Source of the DNA: Pegea sp. RAD2-039
Taxonomy: Eukaryota > Chordata > Thaliacea > Salpida > Salpidae
DNA: 64,000 bases
Direction of reading: 5' to 3'
NCBI GenBank assembly: GCA_034620365.1
Contig: JAQGEQ010000380.1
Location: forward strand, 1,116,001-1,180,000
Part shown: one piece after another, positions 1 to 28,000 of the stretch
Layout: each line of letters starts with the position of its first letter
How positions within the stretch are numbered: position 1 is the first letter of the stretch
Program-made: the position numbers and the translations under genes
Notes under the pieces: model-generated
What the model saw: only the letters and a program-made list of their open reading frames with translations
Told to the model about the DNA's origin: nothing
The model's database searches: none

Positions 1-3000
1 AGTAGACGATAATTTTGGTTTAAAAGAACGCTCATCAGATATTTCTATAGAACCAAAAAGCCAAACTGAAAGTAAGTTATTTCTAATTAGAAAATGAATT
101 TGCCGAAATTCTGTATTTTTCAGTAATATCGCTTAAAGCATGATAATCTTATCATATAAAAAGCCATTAAAACAACTTTTTCTAACCAAATATAACCATC
201 TTTAAAAAAAATCACTATTATTTCAACAAACACTATTTAATATTTTGTTTCAAAATTATCTGTATCATTAGATCCTCATGATACAGATGAAGATGAGAAA
301 GATTATGTTGATAAAGATGGAAGACCTCTTGATAAAGAAGATGAACATAAAGGTTTGTATTTATCTAACATACATTTAAGTATTTATACATTTGTTTCAA
401 TTTTTACTTTAATATTAAACAGATACTCAAATAATTGTTGATGATGAGAAGGATTATGATGATAAAGATGGAAGACCTCTTGATAAAGAAGATGAACATA
501 AAGGTTTGTATTTATCTAACATACATTTAAGTATTTATACATTTGTTTCAATTTTTACTTTAATATTAAATAGATACTCAAATAATTGTTGATGATGAAA
601 AAGATTATGATGATAAAGATGGAAGACCTCTTGATAAAGAAGATGAACATAAAGGTTTGTATTTATCTAACATACATTTAAGTATTTAGACGTTTGTTTC
701 AATTTTTACTTTAATATTAAATAGATACTCAAATAATTGTCGATGATGAAAAAGATTATGATGATAAAGATGGAAGACCTCTTGATAAAGAAGATGAACA
801 TAAAGGTTTGTATTTATCTAACATACATTTAAGTATTTATACATTTGTTTCAATTTTTTACTTTTATATTGAATAGATACTCAAATAATTGTTGATGATG
901 AGAAAGATTATGATGATAAAGATGGAAGACCTCTTGATAAAGAAGATGAACATAAAGGTTTGTATTTATCTAACATACATTTAAGTATTTAGACATTTGT
1001 TTCAATTTTTACTTTTATATTGAATAGATACTCAAATAATTGTTGATGATGAGAAAGATTATGATGATAAAGATGGAAGACCTCTTGATAAAGAAGATGA
1101 ACATAAAGGTTTGTGTTTATCTAACATACATTTAAGTATTTAGACATTTGTTTCAATTTTTACTTTAATATTGAATAGATACTCAAATAATTGTTGATGA
1201 TGAGAAAGATTATGATGATAAAGATGGAAGACCTCTTGATAAAGAAGATGAACATAAAGGTTTGTATTTATCTAACATACATTTAAGTATTTATACATTT
1301 GTTTCAATTTTTACTTTAATATTAAATAGATACTCAAATAATTGTTGATGATGAAAAAGATTATGATGATAAAGATGGAAGACCTCTTGATAAAGAAGAT
1401 GAACATAAAGGTTTGTATTTATCTAACATACATTTAAGTATTTAGACATTTGTTTCAATTTTTACTTTAATATTAAACAGATACTCAAATAATTGTTGAT
1501 GATGAAAAAGATTATGATGATATAGATGGAAGACCTCTTGATAAAGAAGATGAACATAAAGGTTTGTGTTTATCTAACATACATTTAAGTATTTAGACAT
1601 TTGTTTCAATTTTTACTTTAATATTAAACAGATACTCAAATAATTGTTGATGATGAAAAAGATTATGATGATAAAGATGGAAGACCTCTTGATAAAGAAG
1701 ATGAACATAAAGGTTTGTATTTATCTAACATACATTTAAGTATTTATACATTTGTTTCAATTTTTTACTTTTATATTGAATAGATACTCAAATAATTGTT
1801 GATGATGAGAAAGATTATGATGATAAAGATGGAAGACCTCTTGATAAAGAAGATGAACATAAAGGTTTGTATTTATCTAACATACATTTAAGTATTTAGA
1901 CATTTGTTTCAATTTTTACTTTAATATTAAATAGATACTCAAATAATTGTCGATGATGAAAAAGATTATGATGATAAAGATGGAAGACCTCTTGATAAAG
2001 AAGATGAACATAAAGGTTTGTGTTTATCTAACATACATTTAAGTATTTATACATTTGTTTCAATTTTTACTTTAATATTAAATAGATACTCAAATAATTG
2101 TTGATGATGAGAAGGATTATGATGATAAAGATGGAAGACCTCTTGATAAAGAAGATGAACATAAAGGTTTGTATTTATCTAACATACATTTAAGTATTTA
2201 TACATTTGTTTCAATTTTTACTTTAATATTAAATAGATACTCAAATAATTGTTGATGATGAAAAAGATTATGATGATAAAGATGGAAGACCTCTTGATAA
2301 AGAAGATGAACATAAAGGTTTGTATTTATCTAACATACATTTAAGTATTTAGACGTTTGTTTCAATTTTTACTTTAATATTAAACAGATACTCATGATAA
2401 AGATTATGATTATGAGAAAGATTATGATGATAAAGATGGAAGACCTCTTGATAAAGAAGATGAACATAAAGGTTTGTGTTTATCTAACATACATTTAAGT
2501 ATTTAGACGTTTGTTTCAATTTTTACTTTAATATTAAACAGATCTTCATGATAAAGATTATGATTATGAGAAAGATTATGATGATAAAGATGGAAGACCT
2601 CTAGATAAAGAGATGACATAAAGGTTTGTGTTTATATCTAACATACATTTAAGTATTTAGACATTTGTTTCAATTTTTACTTTAATATTAAACAGATACT
2701 CATGATAAAGATTATGATTATGAGAAAGATTATGATGATAAAGATGGAAGACCTCTTGATAAAGAAGATGAACATAAAGGTTTGTATTTATCTAACATAC
2801 ATTTAAGTATTTAGACGTTTGTTTCAATTTTTACTTTAATATTAAACAGATACTCATGATAAAGATTATGATTATGAGAAAGATTATGATGATAAAGATG
2901 GAAGACCTGGAAGACCTCTTGATAAAGAAGATGAACATAAAGGTTTGTGTTTATCTAACATACATTTAAGTATTTAGACGTTTGTTTCAATTTTTACTTT

Positions 3001-4045
3001 AATATTAAACAGATACTCATGATAAAGATTATGATTATGAGAAAGATTATGATGATAAAGATGGAAGACCTCTTGATAAAGAAGATGAACATAAAGGTTT
3101 GTATTTATCTAACATACATTTAAGTATTTATACATTTGTTTCAATTTTTACTTTAATATTAAACAGATACTCAAATAATTGTTGATGATGAAAAAGATTA
3201 TGATGATAAAGATGGAAGACCTCTTGATAAAGAAGATGAACATAAAGGTTTGTATTTATCTAACATACATTTAAGTATTATTACATTTGTTTCAATTTTT
3301 ACTTTAATATTAAACAGATCTTCATGATAAAGATTATGATTATGAGAAAGATTATGATGATAAAGATGGAAGACCTCTTGATAAAGAAGATGATTATGAG
3401 AAAGATTATGATGATAAAGATGGAAGACCTCTTGATGAAGATTATGATTATGAGAAGGATTATGATGATAAAGATGGAAGACCTCATGATAAAGATTATG
3501 ATTATGAGAAGGATTATGATGATAAAGATGGAAGACCTCTTGATAAAGAAGGATTATGAGAAAAGATTATGATGATAAAGATGGAAGACCTCTTGATAAA
3601 GATTATGATTATGAGAAAGATTATGATGATAAAGATGGAAGACCTCTTGATAAAGAAGATGATTATGAGAAAGATTATGATGATAAAGATGGAAGACCTC
3701 ATGATAAAGATTATGATTATGAGAAAGATTATGATGATAAAGATGGAAGACCTCATGATAAAGATTATGATTATGAGAAGGATTATGATGATAAAGATGG
3801 AAGACCTCTTGATAAAGAAGATGATTATGAGAAAGATTATGATGATAAAGATGGAAGACCTCATGATAAAGATTATGATTATGAGAAAGATTATGATGAT
3901 AAAGATGGAAGACCTCTTGATAAAGATTATGATTATGAGAAAGATTATGATGATAAAGATGGAAGACCTCATGATAAAGATTATGATTATGAGAAAGATT
4001 ATGATGATAAAGATGGAAGACCTCATGATAAAGAAAATGGAATTG
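1..4045 (+). CDS. Exons 1-22: acidic DKDGRPLDK repeat region
   Basis: Partial exon 1 (1-71) encodes VDDNFGLKERSSDISIEPKS and ends in phase 1 at GTAAGT. Exons 2-21 are the cassette exons at 272-352, 423-503, 574-654, 725-805, 877-957, 1028-1108, 1179-1259, 1330-1410, 1481-1561, 1632-1712, 1784-1864, 1935-2015, 2086-2166, 2237-2317, 2388-2471, 2542-2623, 2696-2779, 2850-2942, 3013-3096 and 3167-3247. Exon 22 is 3318-4045. All introns are phase 1, so any good cassette can be skipped or duplicated without changing frame. The peptide is rich in Asp, Lys, Tyr and Glu, with core KDYDDKDGRPLDKEDEHK. No enzymatic motif is visible; an extended, charged extracellular spacer is the simplest reading. Confidence 0.8.
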
Positions 4046-7000
4046 GTAATTGTTTTATTTGTCACTTTGCTTGTTGCTCATCAATTGCAATTTCTTACAC
4101 TATTCTAAAATAACCCTTATTTTGATTTTTGTTGATTTCATCTACTTTACTTTAGGTCGATTTCATTTCAATCAAAATGAATTTAGAAATATTAGACTTT
4201 TAAACTAGTTGTTTCATTCATATATAAACTTTTTGGATATATTTTGTAGAATATGAGTATATGGTTCATCGTCGTCTTTTGGAGGCAGAAGCTGATATAA
4301 CAACTCATTTTTCTTATTTTATTTGTCGTTTATCTGTTGCTACACGAAAAGATATAGGTATGAATCGATATTTATTATCATATGTATCAGTGATCATTAA
4401 ATATTTTCTATTTCTCTAATCGTCCTTGTATATTTTCAAAATCTGTCCTATTTCTATTCACTATAAATACGTTCAACATTTTCTCTTTTGTTTATTTATT
4501 TATACTTATAAGATGTTCATCAGCAAATAATTGTTCACTAGGTGACGTTTAAAATCTTTAAAAAGTCATTAATATTATAAAAAATCTTTGAATAGATTCT
4601 GCTTTTGCTCTTATCATCTTTTTGTGTTTTAGAAAATATCAAATTGGCAATCAAAGCAATGGCTGGTGGAATTGTGGAGAGGTTTATTTCTGAACAATTA
4701 CAAAGAGACCACGGTACTTATCAGTTATATGTTGGCATATTTTAGATCTTATGCAATATTTTCTGAATTTTAATTACATGACCATTATGAAATAATGAAA
4801 GTGTAAAATCTGAATTTTTTCTTTAACTAAATAATCAATTTATATCTTACATACTTGTTTTAAATTAATTGATGAAAATATATAGATTTGTAAATGTGTA
4901 ACTTTATCGTTTTTTAGAAAATCTTTACGAAGTTACGATCAAATTATAATTACGCAAATTTATTTTGTTTTATTTAGATGACAGCTTATTTGCACTAATA
5001 TCTCATCATATTAATATACTTATACGTACTTCAAAACTGAATACTCTTGAAAACTTACATTTGCGAGGTTAGTATTTATCACATCTTTTCTCGTTTTTTT
5101 TTCTGTCACAAAAATTAAGTCTGAAATACTTGAGTGAATTACTTTTGTAAACCTTATATCTTCAAGCAAACATTTTGTTGTAAATGGAGCAATTTTATCC
5201 GATTGAAACTTTTTAATTTAGAATTAGTTTGATTTGCCGAAGCTTCTGTCTAAGAACAAAACCTTTCTAACTCTCATAATACTTTACAATATATTTGATG
5301 AGATTGATGTATCTGATTTTGTTGTATAAGTCAGTCATCTATATATAATGTAACATCACTTCTACATTTTCTTCTTTGATTTTATGACCTTTAAAACCTT
5401 TAATTACATTTTCATGTATAAGCCAAAGTAAGAAGCTAAATCATTTGATCTTGACAATTGTAAAAATTTTCCTATCTAACAGTTTGATAGTTGTATAAAT
5501 CAATTGAATTGAATATTTGAACATTTTTAACAATTTCTTTGCAGAATTTGATGAAAGTTTCTCGAATTTAACTGAAATGTTTCATGAAATTGTTGCTGAG
5601 TATGAAACAGCAAATACCAGTTAGTCAACTTTTCTTTCAACAGTAGTTTAATAACAAAATCTAATTAAATCAAATGTTTATTAAATAAGAAATCACAAAT
5701 TACTTGACTTGTCAATTTGAAATTGATTCTTATTTCTTTTCATATTAGATTCATTCGACTCTAAAAAGGTTCTTAAACGAAGTGTTGATTATGAGAAGCA
5801 ACCACCACGTAAGTTGAAATAAATCCAACTTGTTAGATTTATCACAAAACAAAATTTCCAATTTATATTGTAAACATGTTTCAAGGATCAAATAAAGAAG
5901 ATTTCTTAACAATATCAGCTTCTGAAGATGACAGATATCGAATGAACGATTATAAGCTAGGTTGGTTATGATGAAATTTTTTAGTAATTTTGATATAAGT
6001 AATTTTATTAATAACTGGTATAAGCAACCATAAGAATATAAGCTGATAGACTAGTTTAAACAAATTACGTGAATTTAAGTATTTATACATTTGTTTCAAT
6101 TTTTACTTTTATGTTAAACAGATCTTCATGATAAAGATTATGATTATGAGAAAGATTATGATGATAAAGATGGAAGACCTCTTGATGAAGATTATGATTA
6201 TGAGAAGGATTATGATGATAAAGATGGAAGACCTCTTGATGAAGATTATGATTATGAGAAGGATTATGATGATAAAGATGGAAGACCTCTTGATAAAGAA
6301 GATGATTATGAGAAAGATTATGATGATAAAGATGGAAGACCTCTTGATAAAGATTATGATTATGAGAAGGATTATGATGATAAAGATGGGAGACCTCTTG
6401 ATAAAGATTATGATTATGAGAAGGATTATGATAATAAAGATGGAAGACCTCTTGATGAAGATTATGATTATGAGAAGGATTATGATGATAAAGATGGAAG
6501 ACCTCTTGATAAAGATTATGATTATGAGAAGGATTATGATGATAAAGATAAAAGACCTCTTGATAAAGAAAATGAACATAAAGGTTTGTATTTATCTAAC
6601 ATACATTGAAGTATCTATGTATTTTTTCATACTTATAGATATTAATTTTCAAAAAACAGATCTTGATATTATTGGTGATCATGGATCTTTCGATAAAAAA
6701 GGCAGGGAAGATTTATTTGTAGTTTCACCGACAGTAAAAATGCCAACAATAGCTGATATCGACTGGAACAAAGAATTTGAATTATTTTTTAAGAAAATAA
6801 ATGGTGCAGATCTTTATCTATTTTTCTTAATTGCTTATCAAGTTATTTTTAATATAATTTTCTACACTTATATAACTGAATTATTAAATTGACAACATAA
6901 TTCACTTCAAGGTTGTTTTTAGTGGGTTTCCTAGTTTTTATTAATTCAATTTGCCATCTGAAATGTTTTTTCTAAATATTGATTTCGTGTTTTAAGAATT

Positions 7001-10000
7001 TTTGCGATTTCCATCAAGTAGAAACCACGAGGTCTGTCAGGAAACTATTGCTTGGGGTAAGTAAGCTTGTGAAACAGTTAATTTAAAGAACTATCTATAA
7101 TTATTTTATTATTAAATTTAGGAGTGAAAAAGTACATTTCTGAGGGAATTCATGGAAAGCATTTACCAGAAAATGCAACATTTAGAGGTCCATATGGTGA
7201 TCAAGGTTGGTTATTGTTTCGCTCAGAATTTTAACTTATTTAGAAATAATTACAAAATATAGAAGATAACTAGAATTCAGCAGCTAATTTGTATTTTTGT
7301 TTTTTTTATTGTAATTATACTTGAACTTTAAAGATGATAGAGTCCAGCAAAATTTGCGGCGAGTTTTGTTAGGATCAGAGTGGGAGAAGAACAAAGAATC
7401 AACTGTTGATGGTAAAATAACTCAGCTACCACGTGATTTGATGATCGGTAATTAAAACTAGTTGTTTCAGAGTATTCATAATTTGATTTTATATTTCTAC
7501 TAAATATTAGAATATTAGAACTATGATTAATAAATCGAATTATATCTGGATTCACGATTTAATGTTTTGTGAAAATGATTTGTTACAAATTTCGTTCATT
7601 ATCGAATGAAAATAATTCCTGCGGAGTCTTTCTATTTATCGTTTATCAAACAGATTTTATTATCGTCTAATAAACGAAGCATTTATTTTTTTTAACTTAG
7701 ATCCAGATTTTCTTGAAGATGACATTGTCACTGATTTGTGAGTACATTTTCTGGTTATTTACAGAATAAAGATTATTTCAACAACTATCTAACTAAATTT
7801 TATAATTGTGATTAAAAAGTTTCATAAAATTATTTGCAATTGGTTCATTTTAGCAAAAATCGAAATTTGTTTAAAGTTTCGTAAATATTATTATTAATAG
7901 TATAAATTATTCATATATAAATAAACGCATCTTTATATTATCGATATATTCAAGTGATATAATTTGATAATAAATTTCGATTACTTAACAAATGTGTATT
8001 ACACCACCAGTAGATTCACCTGATTATTTCTTACATTTTATAAACTAGTCTGCAAGAAGTTGTTCTAGAAGATAAAGATAAATCAGAATTGATGGATTTT
8101 TTGAAAGGAAAACGACATTATAGTAAAATGAAACGAGATAACTTAAAAAGAATACCACTTGAAATATTTGCTAGAATGAATGTATGTCACTTGTACATCT
8201 CTTATTAAGCTAATAGATTAAAATATTCAACTTGATGTTCAGAAAATCTTTCTACAAAGTCTAAGTTCCGATGAAATAATTGATCTTCTTTCTGATTCAT
8301 CTTTGGAACATCCGTCTGCTGATATACTTTATAGATTTATTGAAAATTTGAATCGTACTCAGATGTACAGAGCAATAAAGCATTTAATAAATGTTAGTTG
8401 ATCTAAGTTTTATCTTTCTATCATACTTTATTAATATCTCTTTTTTAGATATATTTCTTGAATATTTTGATAATTAGTTTTTGTAGAGTTTCATAACTAA
8501 ATACTTGTTATCCTGTAAGATATAATTTTCTTATTTTAAATTAATGATGACATTTTTCAAAACTTTAAAGCATCATAAAAATCTACCAAAAGCATTTGCT
8601 GAAGTCATTCTTTTTAACATCATTGATGTATTTGGATGGAATGAAACTGATTTGATCTGTCACTTTTCTCATGGAATCACAAAAGATATTATTGATAAAA
8701 TGACGAAAGACAACTTCAAAAATATGTATGCATTTATTGAATAATCATTTGCATTTTCTGAAAGTTGACTAAATCTGAATACTTTCTAAAACTTTTGTAG
8801 TTTGAATTTAGTAAATTCAAAACAGAACAAATTAGGTTATATCAAAAGAGAAATTTTGATTAACTTTAAGTGTATGGAACACCTAAATTCGTTTATATAT
8901 ATAAATGAGAGTTCTTTTATCGATTCTTTATAATTTATAAAGAAAGCTTTTAGTTTTGATTAAATTTAAAAAGTTAATTGGAACAACTTTTTATCGTCTT
9001 TCAATAAAAAACTTTGAAATTGTTTTTGTTATAGCCTGTCATGCTTTTCAAACAAAGCACATATGCTTGAAGATACTCAGAAACAAATCATTGTCGAAGC
9101 GGTTCTTACAAGTGAATCTGAAGAAAGTCTTGTTGAAAAAATACTTTCACTTGGGCCACTGGCTTCATGTCTTTCTGTTAACAGTTTTAATTCTTTACAA
9201 TTGTCAGAAGTAAGTATTGATAGAGGCAATATCCATATCTACCAACTACCACAAAGATTTATCACAACTTGTTAACATCGATTTCAGATTGAATATCTTC
9301 TGGATCAAGGATTTGCTGCAACTGTTAATTTCACTCACAGTAAACATCATGTAGCGATCATTAAAGTGATCCTAGAAAAACTCAATTTCACTATTTTATC
9401 GAACAACAGCGAGCAAATAGATAAGTATGTCTCATTCTATTTGTTCCAATTTCTCTGTATTTGTTAATCAAGCTTATTTCGATTTTTGATAATTACTTTC
9501 ATGTCAGTTTAGTGATTTTTTTACTCTTTTAGACTTGGATCAATGATCTGTATCTATGACATGGAGTACAAACCTTCCTTCTTCTTATGGAATGTAACAT
9601 TAGATTCAGTGTTTGGTTCTTACTGGATCCCTCGTTGTTTATTTTCATCTGTAAAAAATCAACGAGACGCAGAAAAGGTTCTTCAGATTTTCAATTAAAT
9701 GAAATATGATAAAAAGTTCATCATAATAATTTGAAATAAATTTGTATGAAGCTGTTTATAGAAATCAAATATTTAAAAATACTAATAAATATTATTTGAT
9801 AAATTCTACTTGAAAGCTTGCTGTTTCAACTGGTTAAACACAAGACACGTGTTTTTGTTTCTAACTTCACTTTTTTATAAAATATTTATAGAGTTGTGAA
9901 AAAATGAGGATTTATCACAACAAGAAAAGTTGTTTGCTGAAGCCTCATAATCACATGTACAAGTTTAAAAGTTTGACGCTCCAAGTACGAAGTTCTTTGT

Positions 10001-13000
10001 TGTATTTTCTCTTAAATATTTATCTAGGTGTAATTACTTGATTGCCCTCACCACTATATTAGCTTAGAAATAAATAAATATTCTTATTTTTGTTTCAGCA
10101 AAAGTACGATTATATAGAAAGATTGAAAAAAGTTCACGATCTTTCATATGTTCTGGAAAATTTCCCTCTAACCCCTGGAATAGTTATGTCATTAAGCATT
10201 CTTCATCCAAGTCAATTAGCTTTAATTCCAAAATTTCGATTACTACGATGGCTCAAACCAATTTCCAAAATTTCGATTACTACGATTTAGGCTCAAACCA
10301 ATTTCCAAAGACAAATCATTATCATTTAGTCAGGTATGTACTTTTTTATATTTATGAAACAAATATTTATTATTTAATGCAGAAATATGTTCTACTTGAC
10401 ACTTTAATGATACAACCAACTGATAATATAAGTGTAACGGATCTTGGTCATCTGATATCTGCTGTTGATATGGATTTCCTCTCTGATGAAATGATTGAAT
10501 TGTTACAAAGAGATTTCCGTTTACTTCGGAATATCAACACAAAACAGCTTCTACAATTAGTTGACAAGGTTTTCAACTTTTTATTATTTCAATTTGATTT
10601 GTACAAATTGGTTGCTTACTAGATAAATATTATTACAAATATTCAATCATTCGGATATTTTTATTCAAGTTTTATTGAATAATACTTGTAAAGAATGAAA
10701 TCTTTAGGATGCTTCACCAATTTTCTATGTTGTAATTTCAATTAACATATCGACGCTAGTCAACTCAAATTTCTTTTCTTTCAGTTTCTACTCGACTCCA
10801 ACGAAACACCAGATTTCCAACATCCTCTATTTACTTTCATTCCTACTGAAAATCTTTACAGTATGTCATTCGAGAATAATAATTTCACAAAAGCAAAGTT
10901 CACTCGATCACAGGCAAGTCTAACTAATTCACTTTCTCAACTATAAACCCTGATTAGTTTGAAAGTAAATCGAATGATTGTCTCTCAAACATCACATGTG
11001 GAAATTTAGTTTTAATATTTGTCAACTATTCATTTTCAAACTACTTTTTATCATTTATTTCTTAATGAGCTTTTTATTTTTGAAATTAATTTCTTGTAAC
11101 TTATCAATAAAACAATCTGACTTTTAGTGATAAACATTTAACAAATAATTTAAATACTTTCTAGGGTATGGTTGCAATAAAAAAGTACAAATCTGGCATA
11201 CATCACGAGAAGAGTTATAAAGAAGAGATGAAGTTAGTATCAACATATTTCCAACTATTTATTCCTTCAAGAACTGATTTCATCTTTAAATATTCGAACT
11301 TTTAGATATATCGGTCAAAGCTTAGTTGGATTGAGTTGTGAAGATGTTGTAGACATTTCTCTAAAATCTTTGCTTGATCTTGCTCTGAAGATTGATTTTG
11401 AAATTGGAGATGATATTTCCCCAGATCTAGTAATTTGTTATTTATGTTATCAATTATTCATCTCAAATATTTTACTACACCAAATAAAATTTAGTTTTGA
11501 TTACAAAAGAAATTTTGCTTCATTGTAAATTGAAATATAAGTTTACCAGTTATCAAAGAAATAATCAAATATGACGAAACTTCATTTTAGGCTAACTGCA
11601 TAGCTACCAAGTTGTATCTCAATTTGAAATTACATCATGAAGATTCAAAATCTCTAACTTTAATGATGAGTAAGATTCCTGGAAACTTTTTGTTGTTTTT
11701 CCCGTGAGTTTACTGCTTTCAACTGAGTATAACTCAATTTAAACTTTAAAAATCACTTTGTAATCATATTATATTGATTAAAGAGATTACTTAGCAACCA
11801 ACTTTCACTATTTAAAAAAGTAATTCATGTTTTGAATATACATCAGTGAAGAAATGACTAAAGTTTAACATTTGGTTTACAATCACAATAACAACTGATT
11901 TCATTCAATTTGTAGCAAGCTTGTTATTCGAAACATTGGATATGCAAAAGAGTGTAAAGCTATCATAATGAGGTTGAAGGAGGCAAATTTGCTACTTTTA
12001 CCACCTGCTATGCATAAAGTTGTTTTTGATGAAGTGCTGTTTGCAGCTAAAAGTTGTCTGGTAAAAAATTAAAAATACTTTAATAGTTTCATTATCCAAA
12101 AAATTACTTCAATCAAAAGTAATTAACATTCATTTAAAGAAGCTGAATTTAAAATCCTTTTTACAGAAAACATATAAAGAATGGCAATTTGGCCCGAAAC
12201 TGGATAAACATTTCAATAATGATAAGACTACAGATTACTACGAGATACCTCATGATAAATATCCAGATTTTGTTTCTGAACATTCCTCATCCAATCATAA
12301 TTTCTTTGATGATGACCATAAAGACTATTCTAAACCTATGACCGTTGTACCAAAAGAAACATTTTCAACTCCTTATCATTTTACAACCACCACCTTAGCT
12401 TATACTAAATCTACAGTTAGAACTAGTACAGAAAATGAAAATCAACAGTTTTCATCACGAACTGCTTCTCCTAATGAAAGATTTGAAACACCAGATGATA
12501 AACAGTTTTCATCACGAACTGCTTCTCCTAATGAAAGGTTTGAAACACCAGATGATAAACAGTTTTCATCACCAACTGCTTCTCCTAATGAAAGATTTGA
12601 AACACCAGATGATAAACAGTTTTCATCACCAACTGCTTCTCCTAATGAAAGATTTGAAACACCAGATGATAAACAGTTTTCATCATCAACTGCTTCTCCT
12701 AATGAAAGATTCGAAACACCAGATGATAAACAGTTTTCATCATCAACTGCTTCTCCTAATGAAAGATTTGAAACACCAGATGATAAACAGTTTTCATCAC
12801 GAACTGCTTCTCCTAATGAAAGATTTGAAACACCAGATGATAAACAGTTTTCATCATTAACTGCTTCTCCTAATGAAAGGTTTGAAACACCAGATGATAA
12901 ACAGTTTTCATCATCAACTGCTTCTCCTAATGAAAGATTTGAAACACCAGATGATAAACAGTTTTCATCACCAACTGCTTCTCCTGATGAAAGATTTGAA

Positions 13001-16000
13001 ACACCAGATGATAAACAGTTTTCTTCACGAACTGGATCATCAGATTCTAATTCAGATGTTGAAATGACTTTTTCGTTTAGAACCAAAAGAGACATAAATT
13101 TTATTCCTTATAGCCCTACGCCTAAACCACAGAACGTAAAAATGGAAAAACGAGAAGAAGATGATGATACATTAGCATACGTTCGCTTGTTGGGTTCATT
13201 TTCCTGTTTCATGGAAGATGACTTTTACAATCTTTCTCCTCAAGCTTTTATAGAATTTTCTAAACTTGCTCCAAAGTGCTTGCATCTAATGCAGAAGAAT
13301 AATGTTGAAGCTATGAGACGTGCGTTCTTCTACTTTTCATTTAAATATTCACTTACAGACAAAGATTTGAAATATATGGTCAACATATTGCCATTACTCT
13401 CTGATTTCGAGATTAGTAACTTCTTCAGCAGAGAGATGTTGATGAAGATGCTACCTTATATGAGTCAGACTAGCTACAAGCCTCCTCTGTGGAGTAAATC
13501 TGTATTTGAAGATCTTTCTGCTGGTGTTGTTACAACTACTGATAATTTGATGATTAAAGTATTACCAGAAGATGAAATGATGTTGAATCTCAATTATAAT
13601 CTTATAAATCAAAGTGAATTTTCATCAGCTTTTGTCAAGCAATTAAAACTCAACAAACCACGAATAAATGTCAATATAGAAGCAGATGAGAAATATGAAT
13701 ATATCTGGCAACGTATCAAAAACCCTTCCTTACAAATAATTGGTGAAGCTAATAAGATGTTAAAAATTCTTCACGGTTTAGATTTATCTGTGGATTACAT
13801 TTCTCACTCCCAAAAGATCATCAAAATAAAAGAAAACCAACTGTTACTGAGTAGTGATCAGGTGGAAGTTTTATTTAATGTCATAAATGTCATTGATCAT
13901 ATTTCTCCGAAAGAATTTAGCAGTTTGATTGATGTATTTAACGTGATTGAATCGATGGCAAATGTAAGTATACCAGGAATGCGAGAACTAGATAGTATCT
14001 TAAAGATTATAGAAATCTTTGAAGTTATTCCTCATTCAAATTATAAAATTGATTTCGTTTTTTTGATACCAAGCCATTATAAAGAAGGTTTAGCTGAACT
14101 CAGCAAACTTCTTATGATGATCAAAAACGAAGCACTCTCTGGAATAAATAAGTGTAGAAGATTATTTTTTTGGGCTACTAGTGATTTAGATGGCTCAGAA
14201 TCACTTGACGCAGTTTTAGAACCACTAGTTAGCTCTTCTTCAGATGTCATTAACCGTTTCGGAACTATACTGAGGTATTTTGGTGAAGAAATTTTGCCTG
14301 ATTTACAAATGTTAAAAAAATATTATGAAGCATACGATGCATCAGGTAGTGAGTTTGGTTTCGATAAACACACAAATGAAAATAGTAATAATTTCAATGA
14401 TATCTTCGAAAGTACGTCGGGAGAGTATATGGAAGGGTCTGCTAGTGAGTTTGGTTTCGATAAACACACAAATGAAAATAGTAATAATTTCAATGATATC
14501 TTCGAAAGTACGTCGGGAGAGTATATGGAAGGGTCTGCTAGTGAGTTTGGTTTCGATAAACACACAAATGAAAATAGTAATAATTTCAATGATATCTTCG
14601 AAAGTACGTCGGGAGAGTATATGGAAGGGTCTGCTAGTGGTTTGCATTCTGGTGATTATGAGCATGATGTTAGCGGGGAATCGCCTGATGGTTGGTTTGA
14701 AAACCATGTAATTGAGTATTACAGTAACTTGTTTGGAACGACAGAGTCTGAAACGAAAAAGATTTTACCACAAGTTATTAAATTACAAGAATTTATTTCA
14801 AGTTTAGAAATGTTTATAGATGAATGGACTCGCGAATGGAAACAGTTGAAAGCTATTTCAGATATGATAAAATTGTATAAAACGTTACCTCATCAATTAA
14901 TTCATCGTCTTAAAAATGTGATCCAGTCAGTTAGTCGAATAAAACATCATGGTCAATTAAATTTAAGAACATTTAATTTAGTTCTGGATCTTGCTAGGAT
15001 TGATCCCACAAATAGTACGGAGTCAGTAAACAAATTATATGAAAAAATGATGCTTTTTTATAGTGAATCTGTGACAGACGCTGATACTTACTTCAACTAC
15101 ATTTCAATGTATGACAGCAATTCTATGTTTGCTAAAGAATCAATCAAAAGTATGAATGAAATGACAATTAAAGGTTTAAACTCGTTGATGAATGACTTAT
15201 TAAAAGTGATGAACATTTTAAGTAGTAGTTCCTTACCTGGTTTTGATGATTATACTGAAAAATTCACATATTATTATTCATATGTAAAAAAAATTCTAGA
15301 AATACCACATGAAACAGCTTCACAAAATGCTGGTAGTAGTGTAAGCACAATAATTGATTTGATATCATCTCTTTTTAGTGAAGAAATGTCATTAAACAGA
15401 TTGGTAAACATGATAAACTCAGTATTAGGTAATTCAGCTACACAAATAGACAGTATCTTTCAATTGTTGAACTTAGGAACTACAGTAGAAACTAACCAAC
15501 TACAACAAATTTGGCGCATTATTAATGCATCATTGGAAAGTAATTTGCCTAATTCTGATGACACAATACAACTATCAACTGAGGACATGATTAAAGAGAT
15601 ACAAGCAATACCTGCTATGATAAATTCATCTACAGATTTAGTGGAACAATTAACAAATTTGATAGTAGATACTTTATTAGCAGAAGAGACATTTGACGAA
15701 GCAGTAAGTTTGGTTAGGCGTATTTTAGAAATAAATATCAAAGAAATGTCCTTACTGATAGAAACAAGCATCGATATGATAGATGACATAGATGCTGAAT
15801 ATAAAGAAGATGTTTTAAACTTTGTTGAAATGATTCAATCAATTATTACTGATTCCAAAATTACAGAAAATATTTATTTCGATGCATCTGGTGATAGTAA
15901 TAGTAACACTACAGAAGACCTCATTAGTATACTAACTCATGTATCACTACCAGAGTTGGCCAGCATTATTAAACATCTTGAAAAAAATAACTTTTCAAAA

Positions 16001-19000
16001 GATATACAAAATACAGTAAATTATTTAAAGGTTATTGAATCAGCAATTTTTAGATCATCAAAATCAATTGAAGATATAACAACTATAATGAATAATGAAA
16101 TATGGTCTGGTGATGGAAAGACTTTTGCTCCAAAATCAATGACAGAAATAATATTACCTGAAGTATACAACCTTATTGATAACTTTATAAATGTATCATA
16201 TGGCAATATTAAGGATATATATAGATTAAAAAATATGGTTCAAACGATAATGAGTCAAACGACTGATGGTGTTGTTAAAGCAATTGATATGATAAACATG
16301 ATGCTTGAAAAGCCTGCTACATTTGCTGATACAACTAAAGAAATATGGAATATTATTGAAATGCAATTAGAAATTGTTATTCCACAATTAGAACAATCTG
16401 CACAACTTATGGATGAAGAATCTGCTAGAGGAATGTTAGGTCTTGTAGATCTAATGAAGATGATTCAAGGAATAATGAGTCAAACGACTGATGGTGTTGT
16501 TAAAACAATTGATATGATAAATATGATGCTTGAAAAGCCTGCTACATTTGCTGATACAACTAAAGAAATATGGAATATTATTGAAATGCAATTAGAAATT
16601 GTTATTCCACAATTAGAACAATCTACACAACTTATGGATGAAGAATCTGCTAGAGGAATGTTTGGTCTTGTAGATCTAATGAAGATGATTCAAGGAATAA
16701 TGAGTCAAACAACTGATGGTGTTGTTAAAACAATAGATATGATAAATATGATGCTTGAAAAGCCTGTTACATTTGCTAATACAACTAAAGAAATATGGAA
16801 TATTATTGAAAAGCAATTAGAAATTGTTATTCCACAATTAGAACAATCTACACAACTTATGGATGAAGAATCTGCTAGAGGAATGTTAGGTCTTGTAGAT
16901 CTAATGAAGATGATTCAAGGAATAATGAGTCAAACGAACTGATGGTGTTGTTAAAACAATTGATATGATAAATATGATGCTTGAAAAGCCTGCTACATTT
17001 GCTAATACAACTAAAGAAATATGGAATATTATTGAAAAGCAATTAGAAATTATTATTCCACAATTAGAACAATCTACACAATTTATGGATGAAGAATCTG
17101 CTAGAGGAATGTTTGGTCTTGTAGATCTAATGAAGATGATTCAAGGAATAATGAGTCAAACGACTGATGGTGTTGTTAAAACAATTGATATGATAAATAT
17201 GATGCTTGAAAAGCCTGCTACATTTGCTAATACAACTAAAGAAATATGGAATATTATTGAAAAGCAATTAGAAATTATTATTCCACAATTAGAACAATCT
17301 ACACAATTTATGGATGAAGAATCTGCTAGAGGAATGTTTGGTCTTGTAGATCTAATGAAGATGATTCAAGGAATAATGAGTCAAACGACTGATGGTGTTG
17401 TTAAAACAATTGATATGATAAATATGATGCTTGAAAAGCCTGCTACATTTGCTAATACAACTAAAGAAATATGGAATATTATTGAAAAGCAATTAGAAAT
17501 TATTATTCCACAATTAGAACAATCTACACAATTTATGGATGAAGAATCTGCTAGAGGAATGTTTGGTCTTGTAGATCTAATGAAGATGATTCAAGGAATA
17601 ATGAGTCAAACAACTGATGGTGTTGTTAAAACAATTGATATGATAAATATGATGCTTGAAAAGCCTGCTACATTTGCTAATACAACTAAAGAAATATGGA
17701 ATATTATTGAAAAGCAATTAGAAATTATTATTCCACAATTAGAACAATCTACACAATTTATGGATGAAGAATCTGCTAGAGGAATGTTAGGTCTTGTAGA
17801 TCTAATGAAGATGATTCAAGGAATAATGAGTCAAACAACTGATGGTGTTGTTAAAACAATTGATATGATAAATATGATGCTTGAAAAGCCTGCTACATTT
17901 GCTGAATACAACTAAAGAAATATGGAATATTATTGAAAAGCAATTAGAAATTGTTATTCCACAGTTAGAACAATCTACACAATTTATGGATGAAGAATCT
18001 GCTAGAGGAATGTTAGGTCTTGTAGATCTAATGAAGATGATTCAAGGAATAATGAGTCAAACAACTGATGGTGTTGTTAAAACAATTGATATGATAAACA
18101 TGATGCTTGAAAAGCCTGCTACATTTGCTGATACAACTAAAGAAATATGGAATATTATTGAAAAGCTATTAGAAATTGTTATTCCACAGTTAGAACAATC
18201 TACACAACTTATGGATGAAGAATCTGCTAGAGGAATGTTTGGTCTTGTAGATCTAATGAAGATGATTCAAGGAATAATGAGTCAAACAACTGATGGTGTT
18301 GTTAAAACAATTGATATGATAAATATGATGCTTGAAAAGCCTGCTACATTTGCTGATACAACTAAAGAAATATGGAATATTATTGAAATGCAATTAGAAA
18401 TTGTTATTCCACAATTAGAACAATCTACACAACTTATGGATGAAGAATCTGCTAGAGGAATGTTAGGTCTTGTAGATCTAATGAAGATGATTCAAGGAAT
18501 AATGAGTCAAACAACTGATGGTGTTGTTAAAACAATTGATATGATAAATATGATGCTTGAAAAGCCTGCTACATTTGCTGATACAACTAAAGAAATATGG
18601 AATATTATTGAAAAGCAATTAGAAATTATTATTCCACAGTTAGAACAATCTACACAACTTATGGATGAAGAATCTGCTAGAGGAATGTTTGGTCTTGTAG
18701 ATCTAATGAAGATGATTCAAGGAATAATGAGTCAAACAACTGATGGTGTTGTTAAAACAATAGATATGATAAATATGATGCTTGAAAAGCCTGCTACATT
18801 TGCTGATACAACTAAAGAAATATGGAATATTATTGAAAAGCAATTAGAAATTGTTATTCCACAGTTAGAACAATCTACACAACTTATGGATGAAGAATCT
18901 GCTAGAGGAATGTTTGGTCTTGTAGATCTAATGAAGATGATTCAAGGAATAATGAGTCAAACAACTGATGGTGTTGTTAAAACAATAGATATGATAAATA

Positions 19001-22000
19001 TGATGCTTGAAAAGCCTGCTACATTTGCTGATACAACTAAAGAAATATGGAATATTATTGAAAAGCAATTAGAAATTGTTATTCCACAAGAAGAACAATC
19101 TACACAACTTATGGATGAAGAATCTGCTAGAGGAATGTTAGGTCTTGTAGATCTAATGAATGAAGAATCTGCTAGAGGAATGTTAGGTCTTGTAGATCTA
19201 ATGAAGATGATTCTGTCGGTAATGTTTATCAAAATAAATCGGAACTAAACTTTTTAAACGAAAATGGCCTCTATTCATCTTCTGTTGACAATCTTAGTAT
19301 CGTTATACATAAATTAACTAGCCAGTTGAAAGCTGATACTATGTATATTTTATTTGAATTTCAATCCTTTTTGAAAGATATCTCTCATGAACATGAGGAT
19401 ATTCCTCTTGTTGTTGAACTTATTGATATCGTTGTAAAAGAAAAGTATAATATTTCAGATTATTTATTCTCTATGAATAATCATTCATCAGTTGTTGATT
19501 CTTCTGAGCTACAAGCAGATTTATTAGAAATAACCAGATATGTTTTGTTTGATATGCACACTGTAATGGGTGTAATAAATGTTATTAAAGATTTAGCAAC
19601 TGATTATACAAATGCAAACAGTGTTAGATTAGTACTTTTTGAATATAAGCCATACATGCGAGCGCTATTAGAATCGATGGAGTATATGGAGCGAATATCT
19701 ATAGACAAATTTGGAACCATGAATGGTTTGTGGAATATTGTTAGTGAATTTGCTGGGTTATCAACAATTGACAGACAATTGGAACTATGCTGGTTAAATA
19801 TAAAAAGAACTATCAATAGTTTCTTATTACATGTTTCCGAGATTGAAAGACTAATGAATGAAAATCAGTATAGCAGTGATATGCTTTATTATCAAACAAT
19901 AAATCAATCTATGGAGGCAATGTGGAATATGATGAGTCATGAAACTATGAATCACATGATTAATCAATCTATGAAAGAAATGTGGAATATGATGAGTAAT
20001 GAAACTATGAATCACATGATTAATCAATCTATGGAGGCAATGTGGAATATGATGAGTCATGAAACTATGAATCACATGATTAATCAATCTATGGAGGCAA
20101 TGTGGAATATGATGAGTCATGAAACTATGAATCACATGATTAATCAATCTATGGAGGAAATGTGGAATATGATGAGTCATGAAACTATGAATCACATGTT
20201 TAATCAATCTATGGAGGCAATGTGGTATATGATGAGTAATGAAACTATGAATCACATGATTAATCAATCTATGGAGGAAATGTGGAATATGATGAGTAAT
20301 GAAACTATGAATCACATGTTTAATCAATCTATGAAAGAAATGTGGAATATGATGAGTCATGAAACTATGAATCACATGATTAATCAATCTATGGAGGCAA
20401 TGTGGAATATGATGAGTAATGAAACTATGAATCACATGTTTAATCAATCTATGGAGGCAATGTGGTATATGATGAGTAATGAAACTATGAATCACATGAT
20501 TAATCAATCTATGGAGGAAATGTGGAATATGATGAGTAATGAAACTATGAATCACATGTTTAATCTAATCTATGAAAGAAATGTGGAATATGATGAGTCA
20601 TGAAACTATGAATCACATGATTAATCAATCTATGGAGGCAATGTGGAATATGATGAGTAATGAAACTATGAATCACATGATTAATCAATCTATGGAGGCA
20701 ATGTGGAATATGATGAGTAATGAAACTATGAATCACATGATTAATCAATCTATGGAGGCAATGTGGAATATGATGAGTAATGAAACTATGAATCACATGA
20801 TTAATCAATCTATGAAAGAAATGTGGAATATGATGAGTAATGAAACTATGAATCACATGATTAATCAATCTATGGAGGCAATGTGGAATATGATGAGTAA
20901 TGAAACTATGAATCACATGATTAATCAATCTATGGAGGCAATGTGGAATATGATGAGTAATGAAACTATGAATCACATGATTAATCAATCTATGGAGGCA
21001 ATGTGGAATATGATGAGTAATGAAACTATGAATCACATGATTAATCAATCTATGGAGGCAATGTGGAATATGATGAGTAATGAAACTATGAATCACATGA
21101 TTAATCAATCTATGGAGGCAATGTGGAATATGATGAGTAATGAAACTATGAATCACATGTTTAATCAATCTATGGAGGCAATGTGGTATATGATGAGTAA
21201 TGAAACTATGAATCACATGATTAATCAATCTATGGAGGCAATGCAGAATATGATGCATGATCAAAATATGGTTGATAATATAAATAAAATGGAAAGATCG
21301 TCATTTATTTTGAGAGACATCAATTTTGTTTTCCCAGATCATTTGGAGAACATTACAGATGTTTTTACTTTATTGCAAAAGAATCTAATTGAAAATCTCG
21401 ATAAACTCGAAGATTTATATTCAAAAGGTTTTTTCCAAAAGATTGAGTTAGCTAAGTTTATCGATAGTCATTCACCTTGGATTGAAAATGGTTTTCAATA
21501 TTTGATATATACTACCACAACGCAAGCTTATGATTTAAATTCTTATCAACAAGTTATAAAGATCATACAACAATTTAGTGCAACTTTATTGTATGGAACA
21601 ACTACAATTGATTATATATTTGATGAAATTAAAATGGATGAGATTGTTGACTATTTACAATTGCCTCAGAGCCACTTAGATGAAGATTTGGGTTCACCAT
21701 CTCCAATTTATTTTGGTGCTAACTTGACTTATGATAAACTTCTTGAACTGTATGCACCACATCTATTAGATGTAGACGACTATCCTAAGTTTACTAGTGT
21801 TGATGAATACAACCATTTTCTGTTCAAACTGGGAAAGTTTTCTGGTTGGAGTTCTGATGTTCTGACTAAAATCCGTTCTCAAACCAATCTTCTTGCATCT
21901 TCTCTTACTAAATCTTATCTCTTAGATCTAGGACATCTATCTCCTATGCTCACTCAAAAAGATATAGCTCAATTAAATGTTCTTGATTTAGATGTTCTAG

Positions 22001-25000
22001 AATGCTTTTCTAAGTATAGATGGGCTGATAAACAGAAAAATTCTATATTGAGTCGATATATGAGACTTAATTCGAAGAGTATTCAATCATTATCTGGTCC
22101 TGAACTTGTGATTGCTGGACACTTGCTATGCGGTGTTTCTTCTTCCAATCTTTTTTCAATCTCATCTAAAAGCTTCAGATACTCATTTTCTGCTTTGGGA
22201 AAGATTAAATGTTTTGATAAAAGACAATTGCAAGTTCTTAAAAATAAGGCGATGCTATTTGGCAATTTATTGTATGATAAAGCCATGTTAAATGACCTTG
22301 GAATCATTGCAGGTATTTAATATTCTTGTATTTTATAATTTAATGAAACTTACAGTAGCCTTTTTAATCATTTCATCATAGCTGTTTATTATTTTTTAGA
22401 ATTATAACAAGTGTGAGAAAAATAAGTTTATACAAAAACAGAATGTGTGATTTCAAACATTCACTTTTTTATTAATCTTAGTTTCAATTGAAACTAACTA
22501 AACCTTTTTTTGGTGAATAGGTGGTTTCAACTCAGATGATTTTGCAAAAGTCAGACCAATTGATTCGTCAATTTTGTCTCCTGGTGCTTTAAGCGTTGCA
22601 TCTGCATCAGCCTTAACAGTAAATAACTTTATATTAGATGCTACATTGTATTGATACAGTAAACGTGAATATTTGTCTACTTATTTGCTAGGATGGTTGG
22701 AATGTTTCGCATTACGCTTTAATGGGTATGTGGAATGGACTGGTACTGATTGCTCGGCCGGAAATTTTCATGAAACTAAATAATCTTGAAAAGAATGCAG
22801 TATTTAGATCAGCATTTGGTTCTAATGCAGGTTTGGTTACTTAGCGAACCTACTGCATCAGATAGATCTGTTGACAATTGATATTTTTCTAGCTTATATT
22901 GCAAATGATCTACAATATTATGAAAATTGGAATTTTATTGATACAAAACCTTTTAAAAAGATGATGCAAGAAGCTTTATCCAACATACTTTTATTGTTTG
23001 ACAAAGTAAACCAGGGAACATCATTAGAGATCGCAAAGGCCAATAAAAATCCTTCTTCCTTATATGGATTAGCTGATCCGACCCTTGTTGAACGGATAAA
23101 AGTTCCTGAATTTGCTCAGGGAATCGCACGAACTGATTTTGAAAAAAGCTTTGGTAATTTTTTTGCTACAAACTTTACTTTATGCCAAAATTATTACCTA
23201 CTGTTGAATTTCGATTGCATTTTATCAGAACTTTTCTTTTTTTACCTAATAATCATTAAAGTCATACGACATCTTAGTAATTAGAGATTTTTTATAGCTG
23301 AGGATGTTTTTGAAGATCGCCGCTTCATTCAATTGTAAGTAAATGTTGAAGTTTTCTCGATGCTCAAAGATTCAAACTTATTGTCATTAGTAATCGCAAA
23401 TAGTAAAAAATAGGATTACACTTTTGTAAATGAAAAATTATTGATGTTTTCAGCTTAAATAAAGAAGCTTCAAACGCAAATAAAGATATTTTGCAAGTAA
23501 TGCAAGGCTCTAAATCTTTTGATGAACTTAATGATAATGAAATTAAAAGTATACCACCACTTATGCTGGAAGGAATGAAAGTGAGTTGTCATTTGTTGAT
23601 GATAATTATCTATCTGACCACTTTTTCGTTATTCTTAGAGCTCAGAAATCCACAAGATGTCTGGTGCATCAATTGCAGCACTACTTGATTCTGACTTGAT
23701 TTCTAGAGACCCAGCAAGCTTTGTAAAAACTTTGAGAAAGATGAGCGATCAGCAATTTAAAGATGCTTTGAGTGTAGTAAATGACAAAATGCTAGAATCG
23801 AATGGACCAGGTGTGTTACCATGGAGACCACCAATAACAACACAGAACGCTATTGTGGATGAGTTTATGAGAAGAATGAGCAGAATAGAGAAACATTTGT
23901 TCTTGGATAATTTCTTAAATTACATGTGTCCATTTGTTGCTGGAATATCTCCTAAAGATCTTCAAAAGCTTCCTGTACATGCAAAGAAAGTTGATGACAT
24001 GCTAGAATGTTTTCAAATGTCCTATAAAGATTTATCAGATCCTCTGAAAGATAGCTTAATCAAATGGACTCATGGCGCTGAAAAATCGATTCCACTCGCT
24101 CGTTATGGCAAATTTATTCTCGATATACCTCTGAAAGAAGTTCAGAACAAATTCAAAAAGTCCCCTTCATCGGTTGGTTATCATTTTTATTTTAAAGTTT
24201 AATTACAATCTGCTTGTATTTGTAGGCATCTGATCTTGTTCTTGAAGGCTATGTAATGATGTTAGATCCCTTACATGAGGATTATGAACGATTTATTAGT
24301 TTGCTGCTGAAAACATTGGTTGAAAATAATAAATCTTCATTTGATATACCTGAGTTTGTCGATAAGTAAGTTTATAAAGATCTTAAACAATTAATCAACA
24401 TAAGAAAGTTTAATCTGTTTTCTAAATTCTTATTCATTTCAACCAAGTAACACTTTAAGAACTTTAGACTAAAGTAACAGTGATTTCTTCAACGATTTTC
24501 TTATTTTAAGTATCAAAGATTGTATAAGATTATAAAGTTAAACTAACTTTTGATTGTTTTTAATTTAGTCTTGGGCATGCTGCTTGTGAACTGCCTTTAG
24601 ACAAGCTGAAGAGATTTATGAGTAAAAAATCGATCTCTCATCTTGCAGTATTTGTTTTGGAAGAGTGTGAAGGCGAAGAAGAGATGCTTTCTGAATCTTT
24701 AGAGGAGGTTATTTTAGCAGCATATTAGTAGCATCAGTAGTAATTACATTAAATTCTGTTCAAATATAAATGATTTGTTACAAACTAAATTCATATAAAG
24801 TGATAATTGTGTTTGCTTTTCTAGTGTAAGGGTAGTGCTGCTTCACGTTTGCAACGTTGTAAGACGTTGAAAGAAAAAGTGGACAAAATGCAATCAACAC
24901 AAGCAGCAGATAACAGACCACGACTAGTTCGCCCCAGTCTTAATCAATTTAATATGATGAGAGAGCTAGCTGATACTATTTTTGAAGAAAAAGATCTTAG

Positions 25001-28000
25001 CAAGCTGAGTGCAAAAGAAATGGAAGAGGGCGCAGGGGCTTTGAGTGGATTAAAACCCGATCAGTTGGATTCGTTACCTAAAGATACAGTGCTTCAATCT
25101 CTTGGTATGATTAAAAAGAACAAAAACTTATCACCACGTCAGGTTAGGGCTGATATCAGTCTTATTTCATCATTAAAGTCATTTTTATGAGCTTCCAAGA
25201 AATTCTAGTTTTATTTGCTTGCAGAAACGTATCTTTTTGGATAAAGCTAGATCTGCTGGCATGAAGATAGAAAAAAATACTTCCATTTCTAGCTTGGGTG
25301 AATTAGTGAGTGAAATCAAACCAGACGAGTTTAAGATGTTGTCTGCTCAATCTGTTGTCACTGGTCTGAGTGAATTGAAAAGCAAGACTACTTCTTTTAG
25401 TTCTCGACAGAAAAAAGCTATTGTTGAAAAAGTAATTGATTTCTTCAATTGAAATGTTGAATAATTTCTTTATAAGATGATAAGTTAAGATTATCAAACT
25501 TGTACCTTTCTAAATCACTATTTAGTTTGCTTGTAGAGATTTTGACATTTGCACGAGGTACACATCAGATCTCATCATTTGTTCATTTACAGTTAGAGGA
25601 AATTAGCATGGATGAGATTTTGAAAGAAAATCTCGGCGAGTTATCCCGTGAGATTTCGTTAGAAAAACTCTCAGAGATTTCTTCTGTGAATATTAGTTTA
25701 GTGAAAGATCAATCATGGGACAGAGGACAAGTCAGTTTCGATATTTTTGAAAATAGAATAATTCAAAATTATTTTTAAGTTTAACTAGTTTATATGAAAT
25801 CGAATTAAATTATCATGTAGGCAGCTAAGTTGGTTGAAATGTTTCTGAATGGGTCTAGTGGTGTGATTACAACTGATCAGCTCAGGTTGAAAATTCTTTC
25901 CTATTTTCAATAAATTTTTAATATTTAAAGTTTTAAGCAATTAACATTTGGTTTTTGACAGTGAAATGGGTTCAACTATATCTGGTTTGAAATGTTCAGA
26001 TGTGATGAACATGTATTATGATGAAATTTTGCAAAATTCTATCGTTATGTCTACTTCAGTTGAACTGTATCCAGACATGGTAACTTGCATTTTATCATTT
26101 GTAATTGCTACTGATGTATCTTACATTACTTGTCTAGAATGAATGCATTCAAAGTAAACTGGATTTTTCAATGCAAATACTTTATGGAGTCAACTACACA
26201 AGAGATGACACAAGTCAAGATTTAGCATCTTTGTTAACAAGCATACCTGCAGATATCATTTTCTATTATCCGTGAGTAGCTTATATCAAGCAAAAAAAAG
26301 ATAAATTAGTTGTTGCAGTAAATTATCGATTTATTTGGTGATGTTTTTAACAGACCCAGTGTGATGGACGATCTACCAAATGATACTTGTTTAACTTTTG
26401 TGGAAAAACTGGGAACCATTCAACTTGGTAAAATAACTTCTGTAATGGGAAAGAAAAAACGAAATGAATATGGAGAAAAAGCAATCAACTGTTTGGTTAG
26501 TAAACTTTCTTTGATTTTTTGATTATTTAAAAAATAAATTATTTTTCATTTAATCGAATTTTCTAATCTTCTAGTTACGAGTTAGTGGGAATGATACGAT
26601 GACTAATTTCACTGAAACAGAAGTTTCTTTATTGGGCGAGCTTGTTTGTGATATTCCTTCAAACTATCTTAGCTATGTGGCTGGTGAAGCATTTACAAAT
26701 GCGTTATCTTACATCACTACCTGTGTTGACCGGTGAGCAATTTGTTGATATTAGGCGCACATGTTCACAATCAAAATAAATAAAGCAATTTGTAAGAATA
26801 ACAAGAAAATATTTTCTAACAGGTTTGACAGCCAATATCGTGACCAGTTGCTCAATTTGACTTTTACTACTTATGGCTCAAACGTTTCTGCTTGGGACAA
26901 TACAATATTAGATACTTTAGGACCAGTTATCAGTTTGTTGAAGTCTGAAGACATCTTGCAAATTGACTCGGTATCCACTTGCAACTTTTATACTTTTTAT
27001 AAATTTATTTTCATCTCAGATAATTTATTAAATATTTTTAACTTTTTATAATAATTTGAAATATTTGATTCATTTCAAGGAATCATTTTTGAGTTCTTTT
27101 GACAACATGTTACCTCCTGAAGATATCTCAATTGTAAACTATCAAGGCTTCTACACAAAAGCACTTCTAGCTGTGAGGGCCAGATCAGAAAGTTTCAGCA
27201 GCCGACGAAGAAGAGGTTCATTTTCTATCTCTTTTACTTTTTCAATAAATTGTTTTAATCATAATTCTGAATAAATAGAAGCTTGTTAAAAACAGTATTT
27301 GATATTTTGATACTTTTTTCAGCAATCAGTTTAACATATGACGACTTTGTAACATTGGGACCAGCAAACTCTTTACTGTCACCAGAAGAGCTTGCAGGAG
27401 TAGCCTACGTGGATTTGATAAATAGTCTTGACACTTTAGGAGCTGTAAATAATTGGTCTGAACAGCAATGTGCTGCTATTCTAGGAGTTATTTCTTCGGT
27501 AATTTCAAACAAATGATTTATTTTTACATCAATGACTTCAAAACCTTCTAATCAACATCAATTTGAACTTTAGGAAATCGGAAGTGATTTTCAAACTTGG
27601 CCGGAAATCTATTTTGTTCAATTACAATATATTCTTCAATATTTAAATTCGACTCAATTTAGTTCTATACCTATCACCTTAGATGTAGCATCTTCAATTT
27701 CAAGTATTTCTCTTTCCACCAGCCAGGTTAGATGTTTATTCTTTTTTTTTTGAGTCACTAACAAGTGCAAATTTCAACCACTAAAATTAATTCAACATTT
27801 TATTGATTTTTAAAACTGACTACCACAAAACTCTATTTGATCGATTTATTCTGATTATTTTAGAGAATGGCTGTTTTTGAACGCTATTTAGAGTATAATA
27901 ATAAGAGTGCTGCAAACTTAACTGGTGATGACTTGATTGGAATCGGATCATTATTGTGTGGAGCCAGTATTAGCTCAATTACAGATATACCTCCTCAAAA

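Follow-up and report, generated by a model that had tools for sequence, protein, structure and literature searches.

Growth of coding sequence by tandem copying of a unit that carries both an exon and an intron is known but uncommon, and it is a test case for the expansion of coding repeats. A close described parallel lies in the MaSp2 silk genes of Argiope, in which iterated and near-identical small introns mark off the protein repeats and are 97.6% alike on average within a gene (PMC9779670). The flagelliform spidroin, as cited in that source, likewise has homogenised repetitive introns. On a larger scale, the kringle IV type 2 repeat of human LPA has a 5.6-kb unit, and more than 40 protein isoforms are described between people (PMC6314250, PMC4378929). 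For mesothelin, a basic furin-type site and a hydrophobic GPI-anchor tail have been described (PMC2628672).

In this study, we analyzed a stretch of 64,000 nucleotides (the window) that contains an array of this kind close to its 5' end. We consider the array to be a coding minisatellite with a 151-bp exon-plus-intron unit, situated in a gene whose product is secreted, probably GPI-anchored, and a member of the stereocilin/mesothelin superfamily, and grown by tandem duplication together with unequal exchange or gene conversion; we put the probability of this reading at about 0.8. In a limited literature search, no title or opening abstract described such an array in a mesothelin-like gene. The coordinates of the features are collected in Table 1.

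Anatomy and homogeneity of the array

TRF detected a 151-bp period at 288-3393 (20.4 copies, 95% matches, score 5296), and splitting of the window at GT-AG sites yielded 20 exon-plus-intron units between 272 and 3317. The initial annotation had given the same limits and the same number of units, and both are borne out, the count being provisional because of a contig end (C10) described below. It had also set the exons at 81 to 84 bp, which needs a small correction, and the GT-AG introns at 70 bp. The exons measure 81 nt in 15 units, 84 nt in 3, 93 nt in unit 18, and 82 nt in unit 16; the introns measure 70 nt in 17 of the 20 units, with two of 71 nt and one of 72 nt making up the rest. Together, the array exons total 1,642 nt. 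The further proposal, that all exons are phase 1-1 and that any subset can be joined in frame, applies to 19 units, whose exons are multiples of 3 with symmetric phase; it fails for unit 16, whose exon length leaves a remainder of 1 when divided by 3 and whose frame meets a stop. The defect in unit 16 is either an assembly error or a decayed unit.

Each unit encodes 27 to 28 amino acids, with 12 to 13 acidic and 5 to 6 basic residues, within an acidic low-complexity stretch. Taken without unit 16 and with the exon that follows, the array is 35% Asp, 15.5% Lys, 10.1% Glu, and 8.1% Tyr. Fourteen units (2 to 14 and 20) form class A, which encodes the peptide DTQIIVDDEKDYDDKDGRPLDKEDEHK; unit 9 has a single K-to-I change. 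Class B encodes DTHDKDYDYEKDYDDKDGRPLDKEDEHK and includes a 9-nt insertion in unit 18 as well as the frame break of unit 16. The class B exon opens with an 18-amino-acid module, DKDYDYEKDYDDKDGRPL, and the same module is found without introns in exons 3318-4045 and 6122-6583.

The copies had been described as nearly identical in both of their parts, and this was confirmed: over all 20 units, mean pairwise identity was 96.2% for the introns (91.4 to 100%) and 93.9% for the exons (79.7 to 100%). The exon figure is depressed because classes A and B differ in their first half. Within the 14 class A units, exons were 98.5% and introns 96.2% identical, and within the 5 class B units the corresponding values were 96.6% and 97.7%. 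The 20 units comprise 14 different introns and 9 different exons, and as whole sequences they are of 19 kinds, the sole identical pair (units 2 and 13) being 11 units apart; therefore, 20-fold looping of a single read does not explain the array. Identity was 96.9% at lag 1 and dropped unevenly with distance, reaching 92.0% at lag 14. The variants are mosaic, in that a GTC exon variant is paired with one intron type in unit 4 and with another in unit 12, and one of these two types also sits behind another exon (unit 10). Judged from the sequence, this pattern would fit repeated exchange among units.

Three of the 4 variable sites in the class A exons (n = 14) are silent, and there are 8 variable sites among the 17 introns of 70 nt. 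In other arrays of the same gene, the protein is altered at 19 of 22 variable sites (225-bp array, two blocks compared), 6 of 6 (60-bp array block), and 3 of 5 (57-bp array). Silent-site bias is thus at most suggestive in the array exons, where the sites are few, and there is none in the 225-bp and 60-bp blocks. With a silent excess of just 3 sites in 4 and mostly protein-changing sites in the other arrays, selection on the repeats is unsupported.

Table 1. Features of the array, its host gene, and related sequences (window positions unless another locus or contig is named)
Feature	Position	Strand	Basis
Exon directly before the array, ending in phase 1; first bases upstream in L008	1..71	+	gene model, sequence
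Tandem exon-plus-intron array, 20 head-to-tail units of ~151 bp each	272..3317	+	TRF, splice-site splitting
Unit 1 exon, divergent 5' end, NPHDTDEDEKDYVDKDGRPLDKEDEHK	272..352	+	splice-site splitting
Class A units 2-14, 81-nt exons	423..2317	+	splitting, identity comparison
Class B units 15-19, exon starts matching the 54-bp intra-exon module	2388..3096	+	splitting
Unit 16 exon, 82 nt, frame broken, stop	2542..2623	+	splitting
Unit 20 exon, also class A	3167-3247	+	splitting, identity comparison
Long exon behind the array, ~13 intron-less 54-bp modules (DKDYDYEKDYDDKDGRPL), frame break near 3551-3560	3318..4045	+	TRF, gene model
Five single-copy phase 1-1 exons (4250-4357, 4633-4713, 4978-5067, 5545-5619, 5886-5960)	4250..5960	+	gene model
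Likely exon missed by the model	5749-5808	+	manual reading, open frame
Copy of the 3' part of the array intron	6073..6121	+	sequence, DNA match
Dispersed cassette copy: exon, ~8 54-bp modules, array-like exon end	6122..6583	+	TRF, gene model
Intron, 5' part homologous to the array intron; acceptor by regular expression (model used 6638)	6584..6659	+	sequence, DNA match
37-bp two-copy duplication in a likely coding stretch left out of the model (9678-10382)	10226..10309	+	TRF, open frames
57-bp coding array, 10.4 copies, same gene	12444..13034	+	TRF, gene model
96-bp coding array, 3.1 copies, same gene	14347..14644	+	TRF, gene model
225-bp coding array, 12.9 copies, frame breaks near 16935 and 17908	16247..19160	+	TRF, gene model
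60-bp coding array, 22.5 copies, NQSMEAMWNMMSNETMNHMI, frame break near 20535-20579	19902..21255	+	TRF, gene model
Stereocilin/mesothelin-type match region	20579..28642	+	Pfam
Exon ending SSRRRR, furin-like basic site, by eye	27080..27215	+	sequence
24-bp coding array, same gene	28877-28967		TRF
Last exon, hydrophobic C-terminal tail of GPI-signal type, by eye	29235..29311	+	sequence, gene model
C10 contig end overlapping C6, stopping in unit 1	G000 C10 last 6 kb, L010 3668-9644		contig comparison
Decayed relic of cassette exon edges and intron, 71-72% identical	L011 ~4868-5031 = C23:331868-332031	minus	DNA search

The predicted host gene and its protein

The array lies in a predicted gene that spans from the upstream locus (L008:8565) to window position 29311. 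The gene was modeled by dynamic programming, with codons scored from open frames in the vicinity and with splice matrices that had been retrained. The resulting rough model comprises 71 exons and 6,489 amino acids (~6,500), with its stop after 29311; it has 19,471 coding bases (~19.5 kb), of which 7,916 are in tandem arrays. The start codon is followed by a hydrophobic stretch (MFRIIFYLVLITG...) that we read by eye as a putative signal peptide. A LINE (reverse transcriptase, PF00078, 5.2e-39) is located at L008 ~4385-7450, ~1.1 kb upstream of the start codon.

Inspection by eye revealed exons that the model skips (L008:9521-9559 and, in the window, 5749-5808 and 27574-27726), and open stretches at 9678-10382, 10861-11271, and 11430-12166, all absent from the model, suggest others. 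The model also drops unit 16 and renders the frame break of the 60-bp array as a 43-nt intron. Because exons were missed, the true exon number is higher than that of the model, and the protein is probably longer. In the 5' region of the model every intron (29 of 29) is phase 1, including 19 array copies and all 10 of the remainder. Downstream of this region, 12 of 41 introns are phase 1. The proposal that the array belongs to a gene for a secreted protein and is joined to exon 3318-4045 is supported computationally by the predicted gene model, the splice donors, and the domain matches of the 3' part; the units appear to be genuine phase 1-1 cassette exons.

Pfam analysis of the predicted spliced 3' peptide (1,609 amino acids) gave matches to Stereocilin (PF21058; 1.2e-11, 44.9 bits, cut-off 26.6) and Mesothelin (PF06060; 1.6e-10, 40.3 bits, cut-off 25.8), both of which exceed the curated cut-offs of these superfamily profiles. 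The superfamily is characterized by superhelical ARM-type repeats of helices, and a single-sequence structure model of 21301-22311 was helical, though at low confidence (mean pLDDT, 40.8), and a 237-amino-acid C-terminal stretch matched no solved structure at E values up to 1. When the genome was searched for paralogues with the peptide of 21301-22311, the query matched only itself; a 218-amino-acid query from the 3' part found its own exons and a 29% stretch at 22036-22311 in the same gene. With its putative signal peptide and a C-terminal tail of GPI-signal type, the protein would be anchored at the cell surface.

Beside the 151-bp array, the gene contains at least seven tandem arrays, two with a unit of 54 bp and the others with units of 57, 96, 225, 60, and 24 bp. 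The 60-bp unit (NQSMEAMWNMMSNETMNHMI) carries two N-glycosylation sequons (NQS and NET). Exon 6122-6583 is flanked by copies of both parts of the array intron and is therefore a dispersed copy of the cassette. In a DNA search of the 105.7-Mb assembly, among the best candidates, which were scored, the unit was found only in this gene and in one relic on contig C23, and the predicted protein had no tblastn match in the 10-kb locus of that relic at E values up to 10. TRF analysis of four other loci (flanks, a nonrandom sample) found no array with a unit of >30 bp. No exact copy of the array intron pattern turned up in viral_contigs or genome_contigs; since neither is a eukaryote collection, this says little.

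In the remainder of the window, a single open frame of 640 amino acids with WD40 repeats is present on the minus strand at 32313-34235, and we take it to resemble WDTC1. Another open frame, at 41701-42051 and downstream, presumably resembles the N terminus of a T-type calcium channel; this frame alone gave no Pfam match. Scans of the whole window for Rfam families (at the gathering threshold) and for tRNA genes were negative.

Splicing, origin, and alternative explanations

Splice sites were scored with a matrix trained on the 46 nonarray introns of our own rough gene model. All 20 array donors scored 9.1 bits, compared with a training median of 7.0 and a score of 5.1 for the best of 86 decoy GTs. 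The array acceptors are weak (3.2 to 4.6 bits, under the training lower quartile of 5.5), which counts against our main reading. Eleven of 173 decoy AGs outscored them, at 4.9, and these appear to be a mid-intron TAG of 11 units; the decoy AG at 2978 is mid-intron, and the TAG variant is present there in 11 units. Use of this TAG as the acceptor would leave an intron of 35 nt. Read-through into the intron meets a stop inside the intron in 12 units and 7 to 16 nt into the next exon in 7 units, and in unit 16 the stop is already within the exon. Translation across the array therefore needs the array introns to be removed, and we expect that they are spliced out in vivo.

The following course of events may account for the array. 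The coding module probably was first an 18-amino-acid (54-bp) acidic repeat, as in class B and the intron-less repeats of 3318-4045 and 6122-6583. A single copy of the module with a flanking intron would then have become the 151-bp unit and spread through the 5' portion of the gene by tandem duplication, combined with gene conversion or unequal exchange, and a variant first half (class A) would have overtaken most copies. Since a unit contributes a symmetric exon and loses its intron in splicing, every further copy would have lengthened the acidic stretch, a possible spacer, with the frame kept, and the introns would have remained alike because they were copied along with the exons. The simplest reading is of a gene prone to repeat growth in which the unit of one array happens to span an intron.

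The state of the assembly bears on how much of the array can be taken at face value. Contig C10 is the same as contig C6 over its last 4,340 bp and stops inside unit 1; the two differ further upstream, within the LINE. C10 joins this differing LINE copy to an identical copy of the 5' end of the host gene, and its end is possibly a misjoin through the LINE. That C10 stops in unit 1 indicates that the assembler was in difficulty, and the count of 20 is provisional accordingly. Five frame breaks were found, all of them in tandem arrays (unit 16, 3551-3560, 16935, 17908, and 20535-20579). The array may be real while its copy number and its defects are products of assembly, the true allele having another count and an intact frame. 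We judge the chances of this to be about even, and it is compatible with the coding minisatellite that we favor. The C10 end points in this direction, as does the confinement of the five breaks to arrays that make up 7,916 of 19,471 coding bases; the chance of this is ~1% if the breaks are independent (0.41^5), a soft figure, as the model was free to hide further breaks in introns. A simple loop, however, is excluded by the distinctness of 19 of the 20 units, and a likely sixth break, read from the sequence, coincides with the two-copy duplication at 10226-10309, in otherwise single-copy sequence. Consensus error in repeats is our preferred cause of the breaks over decay. If decay were at work, the array would be a neutral relic without function in a failing gene; the five and probably six breaks, the 71-72% relic on C23, and the slight silent-site bias of the other arrays speak for it. 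We think it improbable, as the remaining exons of the model required no frame break (though introns could hide some) and the domain matches across the 3' part are strong.

Alternatively, the units could be splice-tunable cassettes, with variable skipping or inclusion of exons giving a ladder of protein lengths from one allele. Small symmetric exons serve alternative splicing in schistosome micro-exon genes (MEGs), which yield variant proteins (PMC4350168), and here 19 of 20 exons are symmetric, all model introns of the 5' region are phase 1, and the 20 donors score alike alongside weak acceptors. Symmetry, however, is automatic when one symmetric exon is duplicated, and RNA folding of units 2 and 3 revealed no structure beyond that of shuffles (z +1.58). 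Moreover, strong donors and short introns, both of which the array has, favor constitutive splicing. Variable splicing of the cassettes is rather unlikely in our view. A broader proposal, that the minisatellite both varies between individuals and is variably spliced, would give a mesothelin/stereocilin-like surface protein two levels of control over the length of its acidic stem, with the 18-amino-acid module also expanding without introns in neighboring exons; we regard this as decidedly doubtful. That the array is an intergenic minisatellite never joined to coding exons is disfavored and has a very slim chance of being correct: its AT-rich, repetitive composition would suit such an origin, but the continuous phase, the donors, and the start and stop of one predicted gene surround it, and the translated unit agrees with the module that exons 3318-4045 and 6122-6583 carry in frame.

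Comparison with described systems

With the mesothelin/stereocilin/otoancorin superfamily, the predicted protein shares the Pfam matches and, as read by eye, would share a basic site and a hydrophobic tail, but it is much larger and includes at least eight tandem arrays (PMC2628672). The host gene resembles the schistosome MEGs in that its predicted product is secreted and that short, symmetric exons follow one another toward its 5' end (PMC4350168). MEG exons, in contrast, are very small and form most of the coding region, whereas the exons here are near-identical copies of 81 to 93 nt each, their 1,642 nt are a small part of ~19.5 kb, and the coding sequence is mostly in larger exons (PMC4350168).

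The LPA gene, which codes for a secreted protein, has a tandem repeat bearing exons and introns (PMC6314250, PMC4378929), and the tandem unit at this locus also contains an exon and an intron; the 5.6-kb unit of LPA contrasts with the 151-bp, low-complexity unit seen here in one assembly. If copy number varies between individuals, the array would provide a compact model for exon-bearing coding variable-number tandem repeats, with a unit ~37 times smaller than that of LPA.

The MaSp2 genes of Argiope and the array both have near-identical small introns between similar exons (97.6% in Argiope, 96.2% here), and just as an exon or exon pair corresponds to one protein repeat in MaSp2, the exons here delimit the repeated unit (PMC9779670). 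Near-identical introns within one gene, together with predicted exons that delimit a protein unit, would place this locus among genes with iterated, homogenized introns. The initial annotation had held that introns as homogeneous as exons were unusual, a view that is weakened by the Argiope figure. The systems differ in that MaSp2 is a silk rather than a mesothelin-like protein, each of its repeats has several poly-A units, and some of its genes alternate two intron types, an alternation not seen in this array (PMC9779670). The flagelliform spidroin and tenascin-X, both cited there, are proteins unrelated to this one. In the gene described here, the same protein module expands in two ways, inside exons and as an exon plus intron. 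This lets one ask whether carriage of an intron alters the rate or evenness with which repeats are homogenized, as was proposed by the authors of the Argiope silk study (PMC9779670).
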